Source of the DNA: Nostoc linckia FACHB-104
Lineage (GTDB): Bacteria; Cyanobacteriota; Cyanobacteriia; Cyanobacteriales; Nostocaceae
NCBI RefSeq assembly: GCF_014696615.1
Contig: NZ_JACJQJ010000001.1
Coordinates: forward strand, 186,001 to 250,000
Direction of reading: 5' to 3'
DNA: 64,000 nt
Position numbers and translations under genes: made by a program. Positions 1 through 28,344 of this stretch are shown here, piece after piece. Each line of letters opens with the position of its first letter. The stretch's first letter is position 1. Below the pieces are notes generated by a model. That model ran no database searches. It worked only from the letters and a program-made list of their open reading frames with translations, and was not told where the DNA came from.

Positions 1-149
1 CAATAGTTAACATCAATCAATCATCGGATGCAGTTCCCGAAGGTAATATGTTAGCTACTGCAATAGCTGGCTGTTTATTTCTGGGTGGAATTACTGCTAA
101 GAGAAAAATGGAAAAAATTACCTCAAAAAAACAAATGAGCAAAAACTGA
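1..149 (+). CDS. 3' end of a PEP-CTERM-tailed exported protein (partial)
   Basis: An open frame enters from the left edge (frame from base 3) and stops with TGA at 147-149. Its last residues have the layout of a PEP-CTERM sorting tail: a V-P-E-G box, a hydrophobic stretch of about 18 residues (MLATAIAGCLFLGGITA), then a basic cluster (KRK) and a lysine-rich end. Tails of this type are recognised by exosortases and usually accompany exopolysaccharide genes, which fits the glycan cluster downstream. The box has Gly where Pro is commonest, and the tail after the basic cluster is longer than usual. The body of the protein lies outside the window, so its function is unknown. Confidence 0.72.
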   Translation, partial: IVNINQSSDAVPEGNMLATAIAGCLFLGGITAKRKMEKITSKKQMSKN

Positions 150-198
150 AACTCCCAAACTCAGGAAAAATCTAATTCTTTTTAGATAACCTTAAAAT

Positions 199-238
199 AC
201 ACTCTTAACTACTTTTACTTAAAAGTAGTTAAGAGTGT
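199..238. terminator. Perfect 18-bp hairpin, probable terminator
   Basis: Bases 199-216 pair perfectly with 221-238 around a 4-base loop, with a short T-rich stretch after the right arm. It lies 50 bases after the stop of the PEP-CTERM gene and about 180 bases before the next start, so it probably ends the upstream transcript and insulates the glycan operon. It is AT-rich for a factor-independent terminator, so a palindromic repeat is an alternative. Confidence 0.65.
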
Positions 239-414
239 TTATTCTTGGGATTTATGTAGGCTGTAAAAACTTGCAATATCACAGAGTTGAAGCTTTATTC
301 AACAACATTACCTGGTAGATTTACAGCCAAAACCTATAACAACAAACGATAGCTATTAAATAATAGCTGCAATTGCTAGTTCATCTAAAATAAAATTATC
401 TTCATCTAAGAACA

Positions 415-1452
415 ATGGGAAGCAACATTAAAATTGGTGTCATCGGCTATGGTTATTGGGGCCCGAATTTAGTCAGGAATTTTTCGGAAATCCCAGGAGC
501 AGAAATCAAAACAGTTAGTGATTTTAAACCAGAGTTACTCGCAAAAGTACAGGCGAGATATCCCAAAATTAATGTGACCACAGATTGTCGCGATATCTAC
601 ACAGATCCTACGATTGATGCGGTAGTAATTGCCACACCAGTGTCCACCCACTTTGATTTGGCTTTGTCTGCATTAAAGGCTGGAAAGCATGTACTGGTAG
701 AAAAACCAATGACTGTTTCCTCTGAGCAAGCTATGCGTTTAATTGATGAGGCTGAAAAACGCAATTTGGTGCTCATGGTAGATCACACCTTTGTCTACAC
801 TGGTGCGGTACGCAAGATGAGAGACTTGGTGGTCTCAAATGCTTTAGGTGATATTTATTACTATGACTCTGTACGCGTTAACTTAGGGCTATTTCAGCAT
901 GATGTGAACGTAATTTGGGATTTGGCAGTACATGACCTATCAATCATGAACTATGTGTTGCAATCCCAACCTTATGCAGTATCGGCAACAGGGATGAGCC
1001 ATGTTCCTGGAGAACCAGAAAATATAGCTTATTTAACTTTATTTTTTGAAAGCAACTTGATGGCGCATATCCATGTTAACTGGCTAGCACCCGTAAAAGT
1101 TCGCCGGACTCTGATTGGTGGTTCCCAAAAGATGATTGTGTTTGATGATTTGGAACCCAGTGAAAAGCTGAAGGTGTACGACAAAGGAATTACCCTCAAC
1201 GGTCATACTGAAAGTGTTTACCAGATGCTAATTGGTTACCGCACAGGTGATATGTGGTCACCTCAATTAGACATGACAGAAGCATTACGAACGGAAGGAT
1301 TACATTTCATTAATTGTATCCAAAAAGGCGATCGCCCGATTACTGATGGGGAAGCAGGACTGCGGGTAGTGAGAATTCTTGAAGCTGCAAGCCAGTCTCT
1401 CAAGCAACAGGGCCGATTAGTTGAACTAAATTTAGCAGAGGTGGCAGCATGA
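415..1452 (+). CDS. Gfo/Idh/MocA-family sugar oxidoreductase
   Basis: This 345-residue protein is probably a cytoplasmic NAD(P)-dependent dehydrogenase acting on a nucleotide sugar. It has the N-terminal dinucleotide motif G-Y-G-Y-W-G (11-16), the family E-K-P motif (96-98), and a W-D-L-A-V-H-D segment with D169 and H173 where the catalytic residues of the family lie. The closest functional model I know is WlbA/WbpB, which oxidises C3 of UDP-GlcNAc uronate before amination by a DegT enzyme. A DegT gene follows with a 4-base ATGA overlap (1449-1452), supporting oxidation then amination. The substrate cannot be read from sequence. It is the first gene of the operon. Confidence 0.88.
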
Positions 1453-2558
1453 TTCCATTTGTAGATCTCAAAACTCAATATCTCAGCATCAAAGATGAAA
1501 TTGATACTGCTGTTCTGAAAGTTTTAGAAAGTACTCAATTCGTTTTAGGTAATGAAGTCAAAGCTTTAGAAGCAGAATTTGCTGACTATTGCAATGCAGA
1601 TTTTGGTATCGCTGTCAATACTGGTACTAGCGCTCTGCACTTGGCATTATTAGCAGCAGGTATCGGTGCAGGTGACGAAGTCATTACCGTACCTTTTACC
1701 TTTGTCGCCACAGCAGCCGCGATTTGTTATACCGGAGCCAAACCTGTTTTTGTTGATATCGATCCGATTACTTACACTATAGATGTCAACAAAATCGAAC
1801 AAGCGATTACCGAACGCACCAAAGCCATTCTGCCTGTACATTTGTACGGTCAACCAGCAGATATGGAACCAATTATGGAAATCGCACGCCGTCATGGTTT
1901 GACCGTAATTGAAGATGCTGCCCAAGCTCATGGTGCAGAGTATAAAGGAAAAAGAGTAGGTAGTATTGGTGACATTGGGTGCTTTAGCTTTTACCCAGGT
2001 AAGAACTTAGGAGCTTATGGTGAAGGCGGGATGATCGTCACGAGTAACCCGGAATATACTCATACCATGCAGATGTTACGTGACTGGGGTCAAGAACGTC
2101 GATATCACCATGTGCTCAAAGGCTATAACTATCGCATGGATGGCATCCAAGGCGCGATTTTACGGGTGAAGTTACGCTACATCGAAGAGTGGACAGAAGC
2201 TAGAAGAACACACGCAGACCAGTACAATCAACTTTTAGCCAATTCTGGTCTGACTACACCTACTGCTTTACCTCATAATCGCCATGTTTATCATGTCTAT
2301 GCAGTGCGGACTTCCCAAAGGGAATGGCTACAGCAACAACTGAATGCACAAGAAATTCAAACAGGTATTCACTATCCAATCCCAGTTCACTTGCAAACAG
2401 CTTACTCTGATTTAGGTTACAAACCAGGTGATTTTCCTCACTCAGAATTAGCGGCTAGAGAAGTACTTTCCCTACCGATGTATGCTGAACTCACAGCTAC
2501 ACAAGTGAGCAAAGTCGCTGATAGCCTCCAAAACATTCTGCAGGGAGTGGCTGTTTAA
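1449..2558 (+). CDS. DegT/DnrJ/EryC1/StrS-family PLP aminotransferase (first copy)
   Basis: This 369-residue enzyme should transfer an amino group from glutamate or glutamine to a keto-sugar nucleotide. PLP-binding features are in order: G-T-S-A-L (59-63), the E-D-A-A-Q-A-H-G-A segment with D156 facing the cofactor ring nitrogen, and Lys185 in S-F-Y-P-G-K-N-L-G as the Schiff-base lysine. The start overlaps the oxidoreductase stop by four bases, and the stop overlaps the next start in TAATG. WbpE/WlbC-type 3-aminotransferases are the likely functional relatives, because the 3-keto substrate would come from the preceding gene. A dTDP-sugar or 4-amino product cannot be excluded. Confidence 0.9.
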
Positions 2559-3565
2559 TGAGCGATCCCCGTCCTGGTTTAAATCCCCATCGCCTTGTTT
2601 CCTTGGTACGCCAAGCTGTTGAACGTTGTGATTTGCAATTGCAAAACGCGATCGTGCTGACAGAAGCCGCAACAGGAGCCTATGCAGTCACACCAGTTGT
2701 GGCTGCGATCGCTGGAGCCGAGAAAGTCTTGGCGATCGCCAAGACTACCCGCTATGGTACCGTAGAGCAAGTGCAAGCTTTGACAAAGCAACTAGCTGAT
2801 ATTGCCGGAGTGAGCGATCGCATTGAATTTATCGCCGAAAAAACTCCAGATATTGTTGCTCAAGCCGATATCATTACCAACAGCGGCCATGTTCGCCCGA
2901 TCAATGCAGAGATGATTGGTTGGATGAAACCGAATGCTGTCATTGGCTTAATGTACGAAGCTTGGGAATTTAGACCAGAAGACTTGGATCTAATTACCTG
3001 TCGTCTCAAAGGTATCCAGGTTGCAGGCGTGAACGAACGTCATCCAGCAGTAGATGTCTTTTCCTTTTTGGGAATTATGGCAGTCAAACAATTGCTGGAT
3101 GCAGGAATTTCCGTTTACACCAGCAATATTTTATTGTTGTGTGATAACCCTTTTCAGCGATTTATTGAGCGTGGTTTAGTCCAAGCTGGTGCCACAGTAG
3201 ATACTGTTGATAGCCTTGCTACTGCATCCATCAATAAAAACTATGATGCTATTCTCGTAGCTTTACAACCACGCCTAGAACCAATACTAGGCGCTAAAGA
3301 TGCGGCAATAATTGCTAAATATTGGCCAGGTACATTAGTTGCTCAATACTGGGGGGACATCGAGCGATCGGCTTTTGCTACTCAGAATATACCCGTATCT
3401 CCAGAAGTTGAGCCAAAACCAGGACACATGGGGATTCTCCCATCAGCCGTTGGGCCAGAACCAATAGTCCGCCTGCAAACAGGCGGACTTAAAGCTGCTG
3501 AAGTGATTTGGCGACAATCCTTCCAACCGCAAACATCTGGTTTGGAATTTGTGCAACTCCTGTGA
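2558..3565 (+). CDS. Unrecognised two-lobed Rossmann-like protein in amino-sugar operon
   Basis: I do not recognise this 335-residue family. There is no signal peptide or membrane segment. The N-terminal half contains an alternating strand/helix pattern with a Gly/Ala-rich turn (about 30-60) and a segment around 105-140 (ADIITNSGHVRPINAEMIG) reminiscent of NAD-dependent dehydrogenases that remove or test a substrate. A second alpha/beta unit starts near 185 (VYTSNILLLCDNPFQRFIE). The C-terminal part is rich in Gly and Pro. Translation is probably coupled to the aminotransferase (TAATG overlap), and a formyltransferase follows 11 bases later. Context implies a step in the same sugar pathway, perhaps an oxidoreductase or a formyl-group supply function, but this is inference only. 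Confidence 0.75.
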   Translation: MSDPRPGLNPHRLVSLVRQAVERCDLQLQNAIVLTEAATGAYAVTPVVAAIAGAEKVLAIAKTTRYGTVEQVQALTKQLADIAGVSDRIEFIAEKTPDIVAQADIITNSGHVRPINAEMIGWMKPNAVIGLMYEAWEFRPEDLDLITCRLKGIQVAGVNERHPAVDVFSFLGIMAVKQLLDAGISVYTSNILLLCDNPFQRFIERGLVQAGATVDTVDSLATASINKNYDAILVALQPRLEPILGAKDAAIIAKYWPGTLVAQYWGDIERSAFATQNIPVSPEVEPKPGHMGILPSAVGPEPIVRLQTGGLKAAEVIWRQSFQPQTSGLEFVQLL

Positions 3566-3576
3566 GGAATTAGTCA

Positions 3577-4545
3577 ATGGTCAATGTACTGCTGATTGGT
3601 ATAGGTACCACTACCTTAACTGCCTTAGAATCCTTAATTTCTAAGTGTCATGTTCAAGGAATAGTGCGTTCTACTGATACAGATGATCCTGTAGCTAATT
3701 TAGCTCAAACAGCAAATATTCCCATATTTACAGATACCTCACAAAAAGCAATTAAAGCACTTATTCTCAAACTTCAACCAGATTGCGTGGTTGTTTCTTC
3801 CTATAATCAAATTCTGCCACCTGCACTGATTGAACTGTCTACATTCATCAATGTTCATTATTCTCCTTTACCCCAATATCGAGGACGAGCTAACGTTAAT
3901 TGGGCAATTATTAATGATGAACCTTGCGCGGCAATTAGCATTCATAAAATTTCACCTGATTTAGATGAGGGAAATATTTTATTTCAACAGCTAATTCCCA
4001 TTCACCGTAATGATACGGTAGCTGATTTGTATGACAGATTAAATGAAATTCAACGGCAAAATTTAGGCGAGACAGTTGTTAAAGCCTTTAATGGTTACCC
4101 AGGAGTTCAGCAAAATAACGCTGAAGCTACTTATGGTTGTACTCGCCTACCTGAAGATGGTGAGATTAATTGGTCGGCTTCTACTAGAAGTATAGATTGT
4201 TTAATCCGATCATTAGTGGCACCTTTTCCTGGAGCTTATACATATTTTCAAGGACAGAAACTCACAGTTTGGCAAGCCATGCCTGTTGAGAATCCACCTG
4301 TTTATGTAGGACGCATACCCGGTAGAATTATCAATAGATCTAAAACAGATGGTTTTGTTGATGTGTTGACGGGTGATGGAGTGCTGAGAATTTTTGCAGT
4401 TCAATTAACTGGAGAAGAAAAAACAGCAGCAGCTAATATCATTAAGTCTGTGAAAATTACTTTAGGCTTACAAACTTCTGATTTGCTAAATCGTATTCAA
4501 CTTCTAGAAACACAAATTACCCGATTACAAGAAAATGCAAAATAA
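3577..4545 (+). CDS. Formyltransferase-family protein, probable sugar N-formyltransferase
   Basis: The 322-residue protein has the formyl_trans_N fold signature: I-N-V-H-Y-S-P-L-P-Q-Y-R-G (91-103) supplying N92 and H94, and D-L-D-E-G-N-I-L (128-135) supplying the third catalytic residue, probably D130. This Asn-His-Asp triad uses N10-formyl-tetrahydrofolate. Length and context differ from housekeeping methionyl-tRNA formyltransferase, since it lies between a DegT aminotransferase and a sugar epimerase. Sugar N-formyltransferases such as VioF, QdtF and WlaRD sit in similar operons. A C-terminal domain (about 205-322) ends in a coiled-coil-like helix, possibly for dimerisation. The acceptor amino sugar is inferred. 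Confidence 0.85.
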   Translation: MVNVLLIGIGTTTLTALESLISKCHVQGIVRSTDTDDPVANLAQTANIPIFTDTSQKAIKALILKLQPDCVVVSSYNQILPPALIELSTFINVHYSPLPQYRGRANVNWAIINDEPCAAISIHKISPDLDEGNILFQQLIPIHRNDTVADLYDRLNEIQRQNLGETVVKAFNGYPGVQQNNAEATYGCTRLPEDGEINWSASTRSIDCLIRSLVAPFPGAYTYFQGQKLTVWQAMPVENPPVYVGRIPGRIINRSKTDGFVDVLTGDGVLRIFAVQLTGEEKTAAANIIKSVKITLGLQTSDLLNRIQLLETQITRLQENAK

Positions 4546-5509
4546 GCGCGTATTAATTACAGGTGGAGCAGGTTTAGTTGGCTCCCATATTGCTGATTTA
4601 TTAGTTAAAGAAGGCGTATCGGAAATTATTATTCTCGATAACTTCACACGCGGGCAAATTAAAAATTTGGCATGGGCAAAAGAGCATGGGCCCTTAGTTG
4701 TTGTAGAAGGCGATATTAGAGACCAAAAACTGCTAGGCGAAGTTATGCAAGGCGTTGATGTCGTCTTTCATCAAGCAGCCATTCGCATTACCCAATGTGC
4801 TGAAGAACCACGTTTAGCTTTGGAAGTTTTAGCAGATGGCACTTTCAATGTGTTGGAAGCCGCTGTAAAAGCAGGTGTGAAAAAGGTAGTAGCTGCTTCT
4901 TCTGCTTCAATTTACGGTATGGCAGAGGATTTCCCCACTACAGAATCCCATCACCCATACAATAACCGCACCCTTTATGGTGCCGCCAAGGTCTTTAATG
5001 AAGGCTTATTACGCAGTTTCCATGATATGTATGGTCTAGATTATGTAGGGTTGCGCTACTTCAATGTCTATGGCCCGCGGATGGATATATACGGTGTTTA
5101 TACTGAAGTTTTGATTCGCTGGATGGAACGCATCGCTACAGGTCAACCACCATTAATTTTTGGTGATGGCAAACAAACAATGGACTTTGTGTATATCGAA
5201 GATATTGCTAGAGCCAATATTTTAGCTGCTAAAGCTGATGTTAGCGATGAGGTGTTTAACATTGCCAGTGGTGTAGAAAGCAGTTTGAATGACCTCGCTT
5301 ATAGTTTGGCAAAAGTCATGGGGTCAGATTTACAGCCAGAATATGGCCCAGAACGCAAAGTCAACCCTGTACAGCGTCGATTAGCAGATGTGAGCAAAGC
5401 TAAAGAATTATTGGGTTTCGAGGCACAAGTATCTTTAGAAGAAGGATTGCAACGGTTGGTAAGTTGGTGGCGTGAACAAAAGCTGGCAAAGGAAGCAAGC
5501 AATGTCTGA
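4535..5509 (+). CDS. NAD-dependent epimerase/dehydratase (extended SDR)
   Basis: A 324-residue extended short-chain dehydrogenase of the UDP-glucose 4-epimerase/dehydratase group. The NAD motif G-G-A-G-L-V-G is at 10-16, the catalytic Ser is near 125 in S-A-S-I-Y-G, and the Y-x-x-x-K pair is Y148/K152. The R-Y-F-N-V-Y-G-P-R segment is typical of nucleotide-sugar substrates. The dehydratase-type D-E dyad is not obvious, so epimerase is slightly favoured. The gene starts 11 bases before the formyltransferase stop and its stop overlaps the next aminotransferase start by eight bases. It may supply the sugar backbone for the second aminotransferase. Confidence 0.87.
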   Translation: MQNKRVLITGGAGLVGSHIADLLVKEGVSEIIILDNFTRGQIKNLAWAKEHGPLVVVEGDIRDQKLLGEVMQGVDVVFHQAAIRITQCAEEPRLALEVLADGTFNVLEAAVKAGVKKVVAASSASIYGMAEDFPTTESHHPYNNRTLYGAAKVFNEGLLRSFHDMYGLDYVGLRYFNVYGPRMDIYGVYTEVLIRWMERIATGQPPLIFGDGKQTMDFVYIEDIARANILAAKADVSDEVFNIASGVESSLNDLAYSLAKVMGSDLQPEYGPERKVNPVQRRLADVSKAKELLGFEAQVSLEEGLQRLVSWWREQKLAKEASNV

Positions 5510-6704
5510 AAAAATTCAAACTATCCCCATTGCTAAACCTTGCATGGGTGAAGCTGAAGCTGAAGCAGCAAAGCGCCCAATTTTAGCTGGTTGGGTAACA
5601 CAGGGGCCAGAAGTTGCTGCTTTTGAACAAGAGTTTGCTGCCTATGTAGGAGCAAAGTATGCTTGTGCTGTGTCCAACTGTACTACAGCGCTGCATTTGG
5701 CATTGTTAGCTGTAGGTGTCCAGCCAGGCGATGAAGTAATTACCGTCAGCCATTCTTACATTGCTACCGCTAACAGCATTCGTTACTGTGGTGCGATTCC
5801 AGTGTTTGTGGATATTGAACCGCAAACATACAACATCAACCCGATGTTAATTGAAGATGTAATTAGCGATCGCACCCGTGCGATGTTGGTAGTCCATCAA
5901 ATTGGAATGCCTTGTGACTTAAAACCAATTTTAGATATTGCCCGTCGTTACAATTTACCAGTAATTGAAGACGCAGCTTGTGCGATCGGTAGTGAAATTC
6001 TCTGGGATGGACAGTGGGAGAAAATTGGCAAGCCACATGGAGACATAGCTTGTTTTTCTTTCCACCCCCGCAAAATCATCTCCACTGGTGACGGTGGAAT
6101 GCTCACCACCAAAAACTCAGAGTGGGATAAACAGTTCCGCCTCTGGCGACAGCATGGAATGAGCGTACCTGACACCGTGCGTCACGGAGCCAAACAGGTG
6201 ATCTTTGAGTCCTACCCAATGTTAGGTTATAACTACCGCATGACTGATATCCAGGCAGCAGTAGGACGAGAACAACTCAAACGCCTACCAGAGATTGTGG
6301 AACGTCGGCGTTATTTGGCACAACGGTATCAAGAATTGCTAGCAGATGTCCCAGGATTAAAATTACCAACAGAACCAGCTTGGGCAAAGAGTAACTGGCA
6401 AAGCTTTTGTGTCCGGCTTCCAGAGAAATGCGATCAAGTGCAAGTGATGCAAGCAATGTTAGATGCTGGCGTATCTACCCGACGTGGTATTATGTGCGCC
6501 CATCGTGAACCAGCTTATCAAATTGAAGCTTGGTCTTGTGGAATTACCAATCAAAGCTGTAACTGTGAAGCAGGAAGTTGTCAGCGGTTAATTGAAAGCG
6601 AACAAGCTCAGGAAAGAGCAATTATTTTGCCCTTATTTCATCAAATGACTGAGCAAGAACAAAATCGGGTGGTACAGGTTTTGCAAACGTCCTGTCAGAT
6701 TTGA
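5502..6704 (+). CDS. DegT/DnrJ/EryC1/StrS-family aminotransferase (second copy)
   Basis: The chosen start is the ATG at 5502, giving 400 residues, because the product then begins with the usual family N terminus; the frame is open back to 5472. The PLP lysine is K191 in S-F-H-P-R-K-I-I-S-T, as in perosamine synthetase-like (4-amino sugar) members, with the E-D-A-A motif near 156-159. Near residues 345-365 a short loop has four cysteines in CX6CXCX4C spacing, which is unusual for the fold and could bind a metal. It is the last gene of the operon. A 4-amino sugar product is plausible from the resemblance, not proven. Confidence 0.88.
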   Translation: MSEKIQTIPIAKPCMGEAEAEAAKRPILAGWVTQGPEVAAFEQEFAAYVGAKYACAVSNCTTALHLALLAVGVQPGDEVITVSHSYIATANSIRYCGAIPVFVDIEPQTYNINPMLIEDVISDRTRAMLVVHQIGMPCDLKPILDIARRYNLPVIEDAACAIGSEILWDGQWEKIGKPHGDIACFSFHPRKIISTGDGGMLTTKNSEWDKQFRLWRQHGMSVPDTVRHGAKQVIFESYPMLGYNYRMTDIQAAVGREQLKRLPEIVERRRYLAQRYQELLADVPGLKLPTEPAWAKSNWQSFCVRLPEKCDQVQVMQAMLDAGVSTRRGIMCAHREPAYQIEAWSCGITNQSCNCEAGSCQRLIESEQAQERAIILPLFHQMTEQEQNRVVQVLQTSCQI

Positions 6705-6748
6705 GTGTATTAATTAGCAAAGCTGAACAATATTCCCAAGAGAATTTT

Positions 6749-8425
6749 ATGGAAAAAATAGCTAATGATGCACTCCATCTAGCGTCAACAGAAGGCAGGC
6801 AATTGATTCAAGCAAACTACAAAGCGTTTGCTAGCCTGGTTACCCAAGCCCAAGGCTATGCACAGCAAGGTAAATATACCGAAGCTGCCGTGTATGTGCA
6901 GATGGCTGCTTTGTATGGCTTCTGGCGGCATAGTGGTCTATTTGCTAGTCCCGAACTTGAGCAAGTCCTACGTGCGATCGCACAGCAAACTATACCCATT
7001 TATCCCCAAAAAACTCAGCCTTTAACCGGAACACCCAGAAAAGTACTGCATGTTGCTAGTGCGGTACAAGGTATTGGTGGACTAGGCAGAATGATTTGGC
7101 GCTGGATGCAGCAAGATACAAAAAGTTGCCACTCTTTGGTTTTGACACAGCAACCATCAAGCTCTGTACCTACAATTTTGAGAGATGCTGTTGACAATAG
7201 CGGTGGCAAAATCTACTCGCTCAATGAAACTACCATCGGCGGCATTTTGGCTTGGGCAAAACGGCTACGCCAAATCGCCGCAGATGCAGATGTAGTAGTG
7301 CTGCATATCTGGCCAGATGACGCAATTCCCATAATTGCCTTTGCCAATAAAGAGCAATCTCCACCAATTCTCTACTTAGATCATGCCGACCACGGCTTTT
7401 GGTTAGGAGCTAGCATTAGTGATATTTTGATTAGTCTCCGCTCATCTGGAATGCGCTTGGCACAAGAACGCAGAGGCTTTGAGGCTGAACGCATAGGCTT
7501 GCTGCCAATTATTTTGCCTCCAACCACCAGAACGCTTTCGCGGATAGAAGCAAAGCAAAAACTTGGGTTTGATGAAAACACAGTATTACTGCTCTCCATT
7601 GCTAGAGCGCCTAAATACAGCACGATTGATGAGCCGAACTTTGCTGATGCCCATGTTCCCCTATTAGAAAAGCATGACAATGCTGTTTTAGTAGTTATTG
7701 GCCCTGGTGATAGTGAGGATTGGTCAGCAGCGGTTGAACGAACACAGGGGCGGATTAAAATTTTTGCAGAACGCGAAGATACTGCAGTGTTTTACCAAGC
7801 TGCGGACATTTATGTGGACTCGTTCCCGATTATCTCTATCACTTCTTTGTTAGAAGCCGGTAGTTATGGTGTACCTTTGGTAACTCGTTATCCCTACTCT
7901 GATGCCTGTGCCATACTTGGTTCTGATGCACCAGGCTTGGACGAGCATCTACTACGGGCGCGCAATTTGCAGCAATACACAGCAATTCTCTCTCGCTTGA
8001 TTGAAGATGCAGAATTCCGCTGGAGCCAAGGTGATGCTACTAGCAAATGTATTGCTGAAAAACATACAGGTAGCAACTGGCAAAGCTCCTTGGAAGAAAT
8101 ATATGCCAAAGCAATGAATTTACCTCGTGTAACTGTGAAGTCAGATTTACGAGATGAAATGTTTCTCGGTGAGCCAGATGTTCTTTTAACAAGAATATTT
8201 TGGAATGCCTGTGGTCATGATCAAATCGAGCCAGAAAATCTCAAGAAATGGCATATGATGCCTTTTACTAAAAGATTTGCCTTTTGGATGCAGCTAATCA
8301 AGGAACGTGGTGTTGGTCGCAATGGTGCGATAGACATCTTATTACCACAATGGCTGTATTGGCAATTTAGAAAATATGTAATTAATACTGTAAAAAACAG
8401 AAAATTTTGGAGATTTTCAAAATGA
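6749..8425 (+). CDS. GT4-like glycosyltransferase with N-terminal helical extension (copy A)
   Basis: The ATG at 6749 has an AAGAGA ribosome site and aligns with the start of the paralogue at 9358, so it is preferred over the TTG at 6701. The 558-residue product has about 90 N-terminal residues of predicted helices, including a TPR-like unit (GKYTEAAVYVQMAALYGF, 41-58). A GT-B glycosyltransferase follows from about residue 98 (KVLHVASAVQGIGGLGRM). The donor-site signature S-L-L-E-A-G-S-Y-G-V-P-L-V lies at 366-378. It should transfer an activated sugar on the cytoplasmic face; donor and acceptor are unknown. It is homologous along its full length with 9358-11019, and its stop overlaps the next gene in ATGA. 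Confidence 0.85.
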   Translation: MEKIANDALHLASTEGRQLIQANYKAFASLVTQAQGYAQQGKYTEAAVYVQMAALYGFWRHSGLFASPELEQVLRAIAQQTIPIYPQKTQPLTGTPRKVLHVASAVQGIGGLGRMIWRWMQQDTKSCHSLVLTQQPSSSVPTILRDAVDNSGGKIYSLNETTIGGILAWAKRLRQIAADADVVVLHIWPDDAIPIIAFANKEQSPPILYLDHADHGFWLGASISDILISLRSSGMRLAQERRGFEAERIGLLPIILPPTTRTLSRIEAKQKLGFDENTVLLLSIARAPKYSTIDEPNFADAHVPLLEKHDNAVLVVIGPGDSEDWSAAVERTQGRIKIFAEREDTAVFYQAADIYVDSFPIISITSLLEAGSYGVPLVTRYPYSDACAILGSDAPGLDEHLLRARNLQQYTAILSRLIEDAEFRWSQGDATSKCIAEKHTGSNWQSSLEEIYAKAMNLPRVTVKSDLRDEMFLGEPDVLLTRIFWNACGHDQIEPENLKKWHMMPFTKRFAFWMQLIKERGVGRNGAIDILLPQWLYWQFRKYVINTVKNRKFWRFSK

Positions 8426-9327
8426 AATTATGGGAAAGAATTAAATATAAGCTCTTAAAAAAAAGTGAGTTTTTAATATTTTCGCCTTTTTTTATTAAGA
8501 ATTTTGATTTACCCCTCAATAATCAAAGCTCTAAACCTATATCTGTAGCTATTCCACATTATAACAGAGGTAAAAAAATCCACATAACCTTAAAAAACAT
8601 CTTAAAAGATAACAGATTTGATGAGATAGTCATTTTAGATGATGGCTCTAGCCCAGAAGAATTTGACTCCTTAAAGGAAAATTTATCACGTTTTACAGGT
8701 AAAATTAAACTTTTTAGACGAGATAAAAATATAGGATCTTTTGGCACTAAAGTTCAAGTTGTCAGTTTATGCAGTAATGAGTGGGTAATTTTACTCGACA
8801 GTGATAATAGTTTATTTAAAGAATATATTGATGCCATATTTAACATCCCTAATTGGAAAGATGATACAATTTACTGTTCCGATTTTGCCTATCCATCTTT
8901 TGATTTTCGAGCTTTAAGTGGAGAAATAATTGATTTTGAAAAATGTTCGCATATGGATTGGCGGCTTTTTGGAATATTTATTAATGATGGTAATTTCCTA
9001 TTGAATAAAAACAAGTACTTGCAAGCACTTTTACCATATAAAGCATTTATCCCATTTGGTGCATGTTCATTATTCACTAATTATATTTGGCTCTCATCTG
9101 GTAATAAGCTCAAAATTATGCCTAATTCTGCTTATTATCACCGAGTTCAATCAGATAGTATATGGATGAATACAAAGGACGAATCTCTCAAGAAGTCTGA
9201 CCTTTTTGGAGATATGTTGATTAATGGTATTAAAGCTGATCAAGATTATCTTAGTAAATTGTTAGATGTATTACCTGATGCATGGATAGAACCGACTTTT
9301 ATTCCACTAACAAATACTGAGATATAA
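8422..9327 (+). CDS. GT2-like glycosyltransferase (AT-rich insert between paralogues)
   Basis: The ATG at 8422 overlaps the preceding stop in ATGA; the open frame extends back to a TTG at 8407. The 301-residue product has the GT-A pattern: S-V-A-I-P-H-Y-N-R-G (41-50), I-L-D-D-G-S-S (71-77) and a D-S-D metal motif at 126-128. The sugar is unknown. It is clearly more AT-rich than its neighbours and contains no GCGATCGC octamer, whereas both flanking genes do. It sits exactly between two paralogous glycosyltransferases, which suggests later insertion. Confidence 0.8.
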   Translation: MKLWERIKYKLLKKSEFLIFSPFFIKNFDLPLNNQSSKPISVAIPHYNRGKKIHITLKNILKDNRFDEIVILDDGSSPEEFDSLKENLSRFTGKIKLFRRDKNIGSFGTKVQVVSLCSNEWVILLDSDNSLFKEYIDAIFNIPNWKDDTIYCSDFAYPSFDFRALSGEIIDFEKCSHMDWRLFGIFINDGNFLLNKNKYLQALLPYKAFIPFGACSLFTNYIWLSSGNKLKIMPNSAYYHRVQSDSIWMNTKDESLKKSDLFGDMLINGIKADQDYLSKLLDVLPDAWIEPTFIPLTNTEI

Positions 9328-9357: not shown

Positions 9358-11019
9358 ATGGAAATAATGACTCAGGATACGCTTCATTTCCAGCATGAAG
9401 AAGGTATTCGGACTATACAAGAAAATTTTGCTATATTTCGCAGCCTACTTCATCAAACTAAAGATTTTTCCCAAAGCGGTCAATATAATACAGCATCTGT
9501 GTATGCAGAAATTACAGCTTATCATGCACAGTTTAAACATTGTGGGATTTTTGCCAGCCTGGAACTAGAAGATATTTTGTTGACCATAGGTCGCCAAATT
9601 AAATACACCAGCTTGAATCGCCGCCAGACATCTTCTTTTTGCAAGACACCACAGAAGATACTTCATGTATCTACCAACATTGCTTCGCCTTTTGGAGGTA
9701 TTCCCAGATTTCTGCGACGTTGGATGCAACAGGATACAGAGCGATCGCATTCACTGGCCTTAACAAAACAAGCTCCTGATGCAGTACCGCCGATTCTGCA
9801 AGAGTTAGTCACCAATAGTCAAGGCAAAATTTACTTACTCAACGAAACTATTGGTGGTTATGTCTCCCGTGCCAAAAGATTACGGGAAATTGCAGCTCAA
9901 TTTGATGTCGTAGTGCTACATATCTGGGAACATGATGTCATTCCCGTCATTGCATTTGCCAATAAAGAGCAATCTCCACCAGTTATTTATGTAAATCACG
10001 GCGATCACTGCTTTTGGTTAGGTTCTTCCGTTAGTGACATTGTTGCGAATCTTCGTGAGTCTGGTATGCGTTTTTCACAAAAGCGCCGATATATTCAACC
10101 AGAGCGTAACATGCTCCTACCAACTATTTTAGAACCTGCTCACAGATCGCTATCCCGTAAAGAAGCAAAGCGAGAGCTTGGTATTGATGAAAATAGTGTC
10201 TTGCTACTCTCCATTGCTAGAGCGCCTAAGTACAGAAAGACTGATGGGATGAGCTTTGCTGACGCACATGTATCACTATTAAAAAAATATGAACACGCTA
10301 TTTTGATTGTTATTGGCCCTGGTGGTAGGGAAGATTGGTCAACTGCGATCCAGGAAACCCAAGGCAGGATTATTGTCCTCGGACATACCGAAGATACTGC
10401 CATTTATTATCAAGCCGCTGACATCTACGTTGACTCATATCCCTTTGTTTCGATTACTTCTTTATTAGAAGCAGGGAGCTATGGTGTACCTTTAGTAAGT
10501 CGCTACCCTTATTCATCAGATGCTTGTGAGATTTTTGGTGCTGATATGCCAGGTTTAACTGGTAATTTAATTCGGGTTCACGATTTGAAAGAATACACAA
10601 ATGTTTTGGCACTGTTAATCGAGAATGAGGAAATAAGGCTTTCTTTAGGAGAAAAAACTCAAGAGAGTATTGTAGATTTACACATGGGAGATAACTGGCA
10701 GCGTTCCTTAGAACAGATATATATCCAAGCACTTACTTTGCCTCGAATACAACTCACCTCACCCCCACAGGATCAAATGTTTCTTGGTGAACCAGATGTT
10801 TTTTGGATTCGGGATCATAGTTGGAATTATCAACTGGATGATTTGATTCAGTCCAGGCTACAAATCATGCCTTTAGCACAAAGATTATATCACTGGTTCA
10901 GGTTAGTTAAAACACGTGGCTTAAATAAGCAATTGAGCCTTTTACTACCCGAGTGGTTCCGCTTGCGCTACTATTTACCTTTACGTTCTGCATTGCGGAT
11001 GTGGAAGATTTCTACTTAA
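9358..11019 (+). CDS. GT4-like glycosyltransferase with N-terminal helical extension (copy B)
   Basis: A 553-residue paralogue of 6749-8425 that aligns along its full length: the same helical N terminus (to about residue 95), the same K-I-L-H-V-S start of the GT-B part, and the same S-L-L-E-A-G-S-Y-G-V-P-L-V donor signature. Several blocks such as AFANKEQSPP and LLLSIARAPKY are identical. Only a few one- or two-residue indels separate the copies (for example PYSSDAC against PYSDAC). It presumably adds a related sugar or uses a related acceptor. It contains a HIP1 octamer at about 9741, so it looks native. Confidence 0.84.
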   Translation: MEIMTQDTLHFQHEEGIRTIQENFAIFRSLLHQTKDFSQSGQYNTASVYAEITAYHAQFKHCGIFASLELEDILLTIGRQIKYTSLNRRQTSSFCKTPQKILHVSTNIASPFGGIPRFLRRWMQQDTERSHSLALTKQAPDAVPPILQELVTNSQGKIYLLNETIGGYVSRAKRLREIAAQFDVVVLHIWEHDVIPVIAFANKEQSPPVIYVNHGDHCFWLGSSVSDIVANLRESGMRFSQKRRYIQPERNMLLPTILEPAHRSLSRKEAKRELGIDENSVLLLSIARAPKYRKTDGMSFADAHVSLLKKYEHAILIVIGPGGREDWSTAIQETQGRIIVLGHTEDTAIYYQAADIYVDSYPFVSITSLLEAGSYGVPLVSRYPYSSDACEIFGADMPGLTGNLIRVHDLKEYTNVLALLIENEEIRLSLGEKTQESIVDLHMGDNWQRSLEQIYIQALTLPRIQLTSPPQDQMFLGEPDVFWIRDHSWNYQLDDLIQSRLQIMPLAQRLYHWFRLVKTRGLNKQLSLLLPEWFRLRYYLPLRSALRMWKIST

Positions 11020-27372: not shown

Positions 27373-28344
27373 ATGTATAATACAAGTTTTACCAAAATTA
27401 GTACTAGTCAAATAGTGAATGACCTTAAAGACAAGGGTTATTTCGTTTTTGAGCAGGCCTTAAATAAAAATTATGTTGAGGAAATGCTTCAAGAAGTTGA
27501 TTTTAACCAGATCTTAGTTAATACTAACGATGTTGGTGTAGTTACTGCCCAATCTTATAAATTCTTAACCCACTGTCTGGCTAACTCTAAAAAAGCCTAT
27601 GAAATCATTACTTCCCCAAAAATATTAGATATTTGTAAAAATTATTTCACTGATAATTATAAACTCACGAATCATCGAATTTTTCAAGTTAGTAGAAATT
27701 CTCATATGCCTTGGCATACTGATAATAATCTTCAAACCGGCAATCAACTCAGTGATAAGCATAATATGCCAGGTTTATTATTTTTATTTTACTTATCAGA
27801 TGTTACCAAGAATGCATTTCAATATGTCAAAAACTCTCATAAATGGTCTCAAAAATATAATGGAGAAATTTACTTGAGTGATAGTTTTATAGAAAAAAAT
27901 TATCAACAAGAGATACTTGCATTTCCCATGCAAAAAGGGACTATTATTATCTGTGATATCCACGGAGTTCATAGAGCAGAACCTTTCCAAGATAAAAACT
28001 ACACCAGAACTTCCTTACTTTTTCAAGTTGATCAGGTTGGTAGCCAATATATAGGGCATGGGGAAAAAAATATAGTTAATACTGAATATCTTGATAATTT
28101 AAGTCCCGAAGTAATGGATTATCTGGGATTTGGCTTTAAGCGAAATTATCCGGCATTTCCTAACTCTTCTGTTTCTACTATGCCACCTAAAGATATTTTG
28201 TTATTACAGCAGAACTTATTCATGCAAACCATTAAAGCGCTTAATAAGAGCATGGTAAAATCTATCTTACCTGCCGAAGCAGTGATTAATGCTAAACGCC
28301 TTTTATGGTATCTCAAATCTAAATATTCAAAAATAACGAATTGA
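27373..28344 (+). CDS. Phytanoyl-CoA dioxygenase (PhyH)-like Fe(II)/2-oxoglutarate oxygenase
   Basis: The 323-residue protein has the iron-binding H-T-D at 115-117 (M-P-W-H-T-D-N-N) and a distal D-I-H-G-V-H-R (195-201), with H200 the likely third ligand. A following T-R-T-S-L-L-F supplies a candidate 2-oxoglutarate-binding Arg (212). PhyH-family oxygenases hydroxylate or otherwise oxidise small molecules and sometimes sugars or lipids. Its place between two glycosyltransferases suggests a tailoring step on the glycan or its lipid carrier, which is inference. The gene is AT-rich and free of HIP1 octamers. The next gene starts 11 bases after its stop. Confidence 0.8.
   Translation: MYNTSFTKISTSQIVNDLKDKGYFVFEQALNKNYVEEMLQEVDFNQILVNTNDVGVVTAQSYKFLTHCLANSKKAYEIITSPKILDICKNYFTDNYKLTNHRIFQVSRNSHMPWHTDNNLQTGNQLSDKHNMPGLLFLFYLSDVTKNAFQYVKNSHKWSQKYNGEIYLSDSFIEKNYQQEILAFPMQKGTIIICDIHGVHRAEPFQDKNYTRTSLLFQVDQVGSQYIGHGEKNIVNTEYLDNLSPEVMDYLGFGFKRNYPAFPNSSVSTMPPKDILLLQQNLFMQTIKALNKSMVKSILPAEAVINAKRLLWYLKSKYSKITN

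Follow-up and report, generated by a model that had tools for sequence, protein, structure and literature searches.

The closest described systems to the locus analyzed here are pathways for nucleotide-activated amino sugars. In the Wbp and Wlb pathways of Pseudomonas and Bordetella, which lead to UDP-2,3-diacetamido uronates, a Gfo/Idh dehydrogenase, a DegT 3-aminotransferase and a hexapeptide 3-N-acetyltransferase are encoded in one locus. The same three families occur together in Nostoc linckia FACHB-104, at the start of a stretch of 64,000 nucleotides (contig NZ_JACJQJ010000001.1, positions 186,001 to 250,000; hereafter the window). Six same-strand open reading frames (ORFs), g1 to g6, occupy positions 415-6704 of the window on the + strand (Table 1), and the first half of this operon resembles the 2,3-diamino sugar module of Wbp/Wlb as described in PMC10622841. 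Unlike Wbp/Wlb, the operon adds a short-chain dehydrogenase/reductase (SDR), a second DegT protein, a protein of no recognised family (g3) and a formyltransferase (g4). Pfam searches found no UDP-sugar C6 dehydrogenase or 2-epimerase in either the operon or the 30 ORFs scanned out of 32 others in the cluster (all 24 that follow g6 within the window as far as 38 kb, and 6 of the 8 before the window), the rest of the genome not being searched.

The second half of the operon is proposed to work like ArnB and the formyltransferase part of ArnA. In that system, which makes UDP-L-Ara4N and its N-formyl form, an SDR, a DegT 4-aminotransferase and a formyltransferase likewise serve one amine; here, however, these are separate genes, g5 has no decarboxylase motif, and there is an extra 3-amino branch as well as g3. 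A third relative is the conversion of UDP-GlcNAc to its 3-amino form by GnnA and GnnB. The best NCBIfam model of g1 is that of UDP-GlcNAc 3-dehydrogenase (NF040723, 3.9e-53), with 180.9 bits lying far under the cut-off of 450, and the locus here has further steps. Nitrogens at all of C2, C3 and C4 are already known in 2,3,4-triacetamido-2,3,4-trideoxy-L-arabinose of Psychrobacter cryohalolentis (PMC8040287). It is an all-acetyl pentose, whereas one formyl group is predicted here and loss of C6 is not indicated. According to that paper, the enzymes for the amino sugars of the strain concerned were unpublished at the time; later work may exist. Neither a cyanobacterial N-formyl sugar operon nor a formylated sugar with nitrogen at C2, C3 and C4 was found in the literature searched by title and abstract, a search with most subscription journals outside it.

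The operon is real and conserved, it belongs to nucleotide-sugar metabolism, and it includes one protein family that is uncharacterised. The first-pass annotation, made from the letters alone, had described a compact six-gene operon, and the junctions from g1 to g6 are indeed tight (-4, -1, +11, -11 and -8 bases in order). Pfam agrees with the enzymes described there (a Gfo/Idh dehydrogenase, two DegT enzymes, a formyltransferase and an enzyme for epimerisation), and the two DegT lysine contexts are as it gave them. Its unknown protein, g3, is without a significant match in Pfam, NCBIfam and PDB sequences. The extent holds for the six genes; the wider locus, however, begins before the window with a WlbB-like acetyltransferase. 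This hexapeptide protein of 170 residues (G000:C1:184725-185237, G000 being the genome of the window) ends 763 bases before the window start, and its best PDB sequence match is an acetyltransferase of lipopolysaccharide biosynthesis, 3mqg (WlbB; 1.7e-28).

Table 1. Features of the operon and its upstream region (positions within the window).
Feature	Position	Strand	Length	Description	Pfam match (E-value)
g1	415..1452	+	345 aa	Gfo/Idh/MocA dehydrogenase, EKP motif; proposed UDP-GlcNAc 3-dehydrogenase	GFO_IDH_MocA 3.3e-27
g2	1449..2558	+	369 aa	DegT-family protein with the PLP lysine in FSFYPGK; proposed as a 3-aminotransferase	DegT 3.7e-130
g3	2558..3565	+	335 aa	conserved protein, no recognised family	nothing at 0.1
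g4	3577..4545	+	322 aa	proposed sugar N-formyltransferase, N-x-H...D residues	Formyl_trans_N 4.4e-22, Formyl_trans_C 1.9e-18
g5	4535..5509	+	324 aa	extended SDR, S-A-S-I-Y-G (GalE-like) motif; proposed C4 action	Epimerase 5.9e-56
g6	5502..6704	+	400 aa (from ATG 5502; the mechanical ORF list begins at GTG 5472)	DegT-family protein with the PLP lysine in FSFHPRK; proposed as a 4-aminotransferase	DegT 2.2e-108
Inverted repeat	199..238	+	18 pairs, 4-base loop	terminator-like, upstream of g1	

Recurrence of the gene order, which had been suggested as a check, was examined in two ways. A scan for g3 in one genome per species (84,980 species), sensitive to close relatives only, returned 14 loci with g3 as the sole query, and all 14 carry g1-g2-g3-g4-SDR-g6 in this order and strand. 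In 12 of them the SDR is orthologous to g5; in the other two (L010 and L014) another SDR, 38-40% identical to g5, takes its place (hereafter the substitute SDR). Insertions occur between g4 and the SDR in L008, L010, L011 and L015, and between g2 and g3 in L009. One locus, L002, is near-identical to the window (98.8-100% over the six proteins). Across an evenly drawn sample of 386 genomes from the phylum, g1 was found in 22 genomes (17 at an identity of at least 60%, called close), g6 in 19 (16 at at least 66%, likewise called close), g3 in 7, one of which holds a remote relative at 31% identity, and g4 in 4. The pathway is therefore uncommon, and its g3 form is rarer still. The genes are co-inherited: all 17 close g6 places (two of them in one genome) have a close g1 no more than 7 kb away, and 17 of the 18 close g1 places are so paired, the exception being in genome G072. 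In addition, g3 occurs in 2 of 72,556 plasmid records. On the planctomycete plasmid CP151668, orthologs of all six proteins (47-60% identical) and a WlbB-like gene adjoin in the order g1, WlbB, g2, g5, g6, g3, g4. The Paracoccus plasmid carries a WlbB-like gene, then g1 (in two frames), g2, a substitute SDR, g6 and g3, preceded on the opposite strand by a formyltransferase of another kind (26% to g4). No g3 was found in phage records or viral contigs, the contig scans needing exact peptide patterns.

The common form of the locus is a WlbB-like acetyltransferase, g1, g2, a 233-residue LbH acyltransferase, an SDR and g6, and the window has g3-g4 at the LbH position. In the slot between g2 and the SDR, 10 of the 17 sampled loci have LbH, 6 have g3, one has neither (L055, disrupted) and none has both. 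For the 16 intact loci, such mutual exclusion would have a chance of 1 in 8008 on the assumption of independence, which does not hold. LbH stands alone in 9 slots and beside a flavin-reductase-like protein in one (L050). The g3 slots hold g3-g4 in four loci (the window, L025, L059 and L060, the last with a truncated CMAH-like gene in addition) and g3 with other genes in two (L023 and L024). Trees of g2 and g6 were built from 31 rows each, 21 with g3 and 10 with LbH, leaving out L022 (no orthologs), L055 (broken g2), L060 (probably the same genome as L009) and L061 (g2 missing). The slot label changes 5 times on the g2 tree and 6 times on the g6 tree (4-6 over the bootstrap), and at least 2 of the changes are forced by well-supported branches. 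Of 34 relative loci, 32 have the WlbB-like gene (it is missing from L007 and L022 within the stretches examined), and so does the genome of the window itself; among the g3 loci, L022 aside, it is present in 20 of 21. Because this gene stays in loci of both kinds, formylation is assigned to the amine made by g6 and not to that made by g2.

Further candidate N-modifiers occur in some variant loci: one is a CMAH-like protein, another a GNAT protein that we would call FemAB-like. The CMAH-like protein (L024:6746-8287), which resembles CMP-sialic acid hydroxylase (CMAH), has beta-lactamase-fold, SCP2-like and Rieske domains, sits between g2 and g3, is truncated in L009 and L060, and may hydroxylate an N-acyl group. 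A protein of 464-466 residues that contains two flavin-reductase-like stretches occurs in the slot with g3 in one genome (L023:6651-8045) and with LbH in another (L050:11061-12461). The locus of G072 (L061) is reduced to a WlbB-like gene, g1, LbH and g5 with no adjacent g2; a WbmS-like polysaccharide deacetylase (PF22537, 2.6e-54) comes after it and a DegT gene lies (43-45%) on the other side.

From this arrangement we propose, with about even confidence, that g1-g6 and the WlbB-like acetyltransferase together build a single UDP-activated amino sugar destined for a surface polysaccharide. This would probably be a rare sugar, g4 formylating its second amine in place of the commoner acetylation. 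We infer the carbons, the substrate and the order of steps as follows. UDP-GlcNAc would be oxidised at C3 by g1, the C3 keto product aminated by g2, and the resulting amine acetylated by the WlbB-like enzyme. Then g5 or the substitute SDR would act at C4, g6 would aminate at C4, and g4 would formylate this amine, where many relatives have the LbH acyltransferase. Since g3-g4 occupy the LbH position and a WlbB-like gene lies upstream, the g6 amine is most likely the target of g4. The product is likely to be a UDP-sugar with nitrogens at C2 (from UDP-GlcNAc), C3 and probably C4. The first-pass annotation had suggested an N-formylated, possibly di-amino sugar; a nucleotide-sugar operon with a sugar-type formyltransferase stands, and the number of nitrogens is likely three, not two.

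The aminotransferases fit these roles by their matches. The PDB sequence matches of g2 are 7b0d (9.8e-133), QdtB (3frk, 3.5e-110) and WbpE (3nyu, 3.2e-94), and its lysine motif is kept in all 33 rows having g2; those of g6 are perosamine synthetase (3bn1, 3.6e-63) and ArnB (1mdo, 2.3e-58). The division into a 3- and a 4-aminotransferase rests on these matches and the motifs because PseC is the best NCBIfam model for both (305 bits for g2 and 301.6 for g6, each under the cut-off of 423.5). The families of a putative UDP-2,3-diamino module, g1, g2 and the WlbB-like protein, are present together, with none reaching an equivalog cut-off.

The identity of g4 was examined against the housekeeping tRNA formyltransferase, Fmt. 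In PDB sequences ArnA comes first (7.6e-31) and Fmt (1fmt) follows about equally well (2.1e-30), and the best NCBIfam model is fmt itself (TIGR00460), with 164.5 under the cut-off of 201.5. Because of these two results, which count against a sugar enzyme, the proposal that g4 is a sugar-type N-formyltransferase rests on its tree position, its motif and a separate Fmt. The motif NVHYxPLPxYRG is found in 19 of 19 orthologs, and the Asp of LDxGN in the 15 g4 rows aligned. The same genome has a separate Fmt gene (G000:C108) above the TIGR00460 cut-off. In the formyltransferase tree, g4 did not cluster with the tRNA enzymes, 23 Fmt rows being split from it on a 100/98 branch; the tree has 42 rows, is unrooted, has several long branches, and its bootstrap is not fully settled. 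Of 30 Fmt loci, the 6 reported to have internal stops are not in it, nor are the rows for g4 from L002, L010, L059 and L060. With its own Fmt elsewhere in the genome and this separation, g4 as the housekeeping Fmt was rejected. Locus L022 points to the SDR/g6 amine as the target of the formyltransferase, since there a g3-like gene lies beside a formyltransferase, and an SDR and an HPRK DegT are present with no g1, g2 or WlbB in 20 kb.

Other observations weigh against the proposed pathway, and its main weakness is the difference in motif between g5 and the substitute SDR. The first PDB sequence match of g5 is UDP-glucose 4-epimerase. It reads S-A-S both here and across 27 of 29 rows (L056 and L057 did not show the pattern), and the substitute SDRs read S-S-E in 6 of 6; therefore, the C4 step may differ between loci. 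GalE-like enzymes normally keep their 4-keto intermediate, and with no dehydratase acid/base residues seen in g5, the origin of the keto substrate of g6 would not be accounted for. It is stated in the literature that 4,6-dehydratases have Asp-Glu, Asp-Lys or Ser-Glu acid/base residues and GalE none such (the review PMC8987622), and that decarboxylases have Glu where UDP-GlcA epimerase has Ser (PMC7984243). Set against these, g5 is epimerase-like by motif and the substitute SDR is not. As a 4,6-dehydratase g5 was rejected for want of DE, DK or SE residues following the Ser/Thr, despite its top NCBIfam model being the dehydratase LegB (162.4 bits, far under the cut-off of 475, followed by GalE with 158.7).

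The support from L022 is also reduced by its SDR (45%) and DegT (36%; 35% to g2), which are distant relatives encoded some 6 kb away from the g3-like gene, and by an Ala at the catalytic Asn position of its formyltransferase. The acceptor of LbH may be N or O. On CP151668, g3-g4 come after g6 and so outside the g2-SDR slot. Furthermore, g3 is found without a g4 ortholog in three loci, with no formyltransferase within 19 kb in L023 and different ones in L024 and L027, and an acetyl-to-formyl swap alone would need no g3.

Part of this evidence would also suit a pair of sugars, an alternative we consider possible and unlikely: g1, g2 and the WlbB-like enzyme would make UDP-2,3-diacetamido-glucose (g5 may give the galacto form), and g6 would use an external 4-keto sugar to give, with g4, a 4-formamido sugar. 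The epimerase-like motif and top match of g5 agree with this, as does L022, where SDR, DegT and formyltransferase genes stand in a locus that lacks g1 and g2. However, close g6 and close g1 adjoin in 17 of 17 places, and the gene overlaps run across both halves of the operon.

A pentose is a good deal less probable. Here, the SDR would oxidise a UDP-2,3-diacetamido uronate at C4 and decarboxylate it, after which an amino group would be added at C4 and formylated, in the manner of UDP-L-Ara4N and the triacetamido-arabinose. The latter exists as an O-antigen sugar (PMC8040287), the S-S-E of the substitute SDR places Glu where decarboxylases have it (PMC7984243), ArnA is the first PDB match of g4, and ArnB is among those of g6. 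Yet g5 itself has Ser at the decarboxylase Glu position, g1 scores best with the UDP-GlcNAc 3-dehydrogenase model, and the C6 dehydrogenase is absent from the ORFs scanned as above. Least probable of all is that the substrate of g4 is the C3 amine from g2, for which it would compete with the WlbB-like enzyme, g5 and g6 serving something else: sugar 3-N-formyltransferases are known, and WlaRD and the TDP-3-aminoquinovose enzyme are among the matches of g4, but the WlbB-like gene kept in the g3 loci (20 of 21) gives the C3 amine a likely acetyltransferase already, and cyanobacterial g4 occupies the LbH slot, not the WlbB place.

Within the proposed single-sugar pathway, g3 is the protein with no assigned step. 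Searches of Pfam (to 0.1), NCBIfam (to 0.01) and PDB sequences (to 1) all came back empty for it. When a profile built from 21 homologs was run against PDB sequences, a single match came up, to part of a chain named as a histidine kinase (E-value 0.042, not significant). Four homologs searched against Pfam to an E-value of 10 gave 2-Hacid_dh (0.22, L027) and PTS_IIB (0.22, L023) only. With hhalign on shallow alignments, the maximum was 31% (g5, over 24 columns), followed by values of 7.6% for AlaDH/PNT, 2.8% for 2-hydroxyacid dehydrogenases and 0.2% for methyltransferases. As none of these searches reached significance, membership of g3 in a described family was rejected. The 21 rows of the g3 alignment are near full length, with conserved blocks that include TEAxxGxY, TN(S/T)GHxRP and LMxExWExR. 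Residues 104-160 resemble NAD(P)-binding domains by eye, a likeness without statistical support; our guess, equally without statistical support and more likely wrong than right, is that g3 is a two-domain NAD(P)-dependent enzyme acting on a keto or amino intermediate before acylation.

Among the 23 g3 loci examined (the window, L002-L015, L022-L027, L059 and L060), the SDR and the HPRK aminotransferase are present in every one, and a formyltransferase lies in the stretch of all but L023 (22 of 23, of another type in L024 and L027). A GNAT gene comes after g3 in L023 and L024. From this distribution g3 is read as a partner of the non-acetyl branch. The g3-like protein of L022 has no relative other than its own genome, G225, among the 121 genomes of its family.

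The surroundings of the operon consist largely of glycosyltransferases, with family matches in 18 of the 23 ORFs between 6.7 and 35.6 kb (one PMT_2 match included). The genes before the window include those for an ABC permease, for an ABC ATPase whose Wzt_C match falls just under the cut-off, and for a 1192-residue protein. After the operon come two related glycosyltransferase-like proteins (6701-8425 and 9358-11019), whose counterparts in L002 are 54% identical; relatives of the former also come after g6 in many other loci. A gene of the phytanoyl-CoA dioxygenase family (27373-28344; PF05721, 5.4e-9) stands amid the glycosyltransferases. The inverted repeat of Table 1 has the longest stem of the 8 terminator-like sites in the region; the sites are not enriched (shuffle mean 7.0), and no Rfam family matched in positions 1-8500 of the window.

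The locus also contains or adjoins genes for large proteins that combine an N,N-dimethylformamidase beta-subunit-like domain with DUF4082 and Ig-like domains. One is located before the window (L062:13979-17557, equal to G000:C1:180979-184557; PF20254, 1.2e-109), and others are in L008 (11532-14567) and after g6 in L048, L049 and L051. A special link of these DMFA2_C proteins with formylation was rejected, as they occur in 8 of 21 g3 loci versus 7 of 10 LbH loci in the stretches examined.

For the unannotated g3 family, the constant presence of the SDR and the HPRK aminotransferase, and of a formyltransferase in all loci but L023, provides a pathway context, so that its reaction can be assayed. 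We suggest tentatively, short of even confidence, that g3 founds a new enzyme family and a new step for N-formylated (in the variants, otherwise N-modified) sugars with nitrogen at C2, C3 and C4, the g2-SDR slot being a site of acyl exchange on a cyanobacterial surface sugar. The repeated exchange of acyl-transfer genes at one locus could be a testable way for the acyl group of a surface sugar to change.

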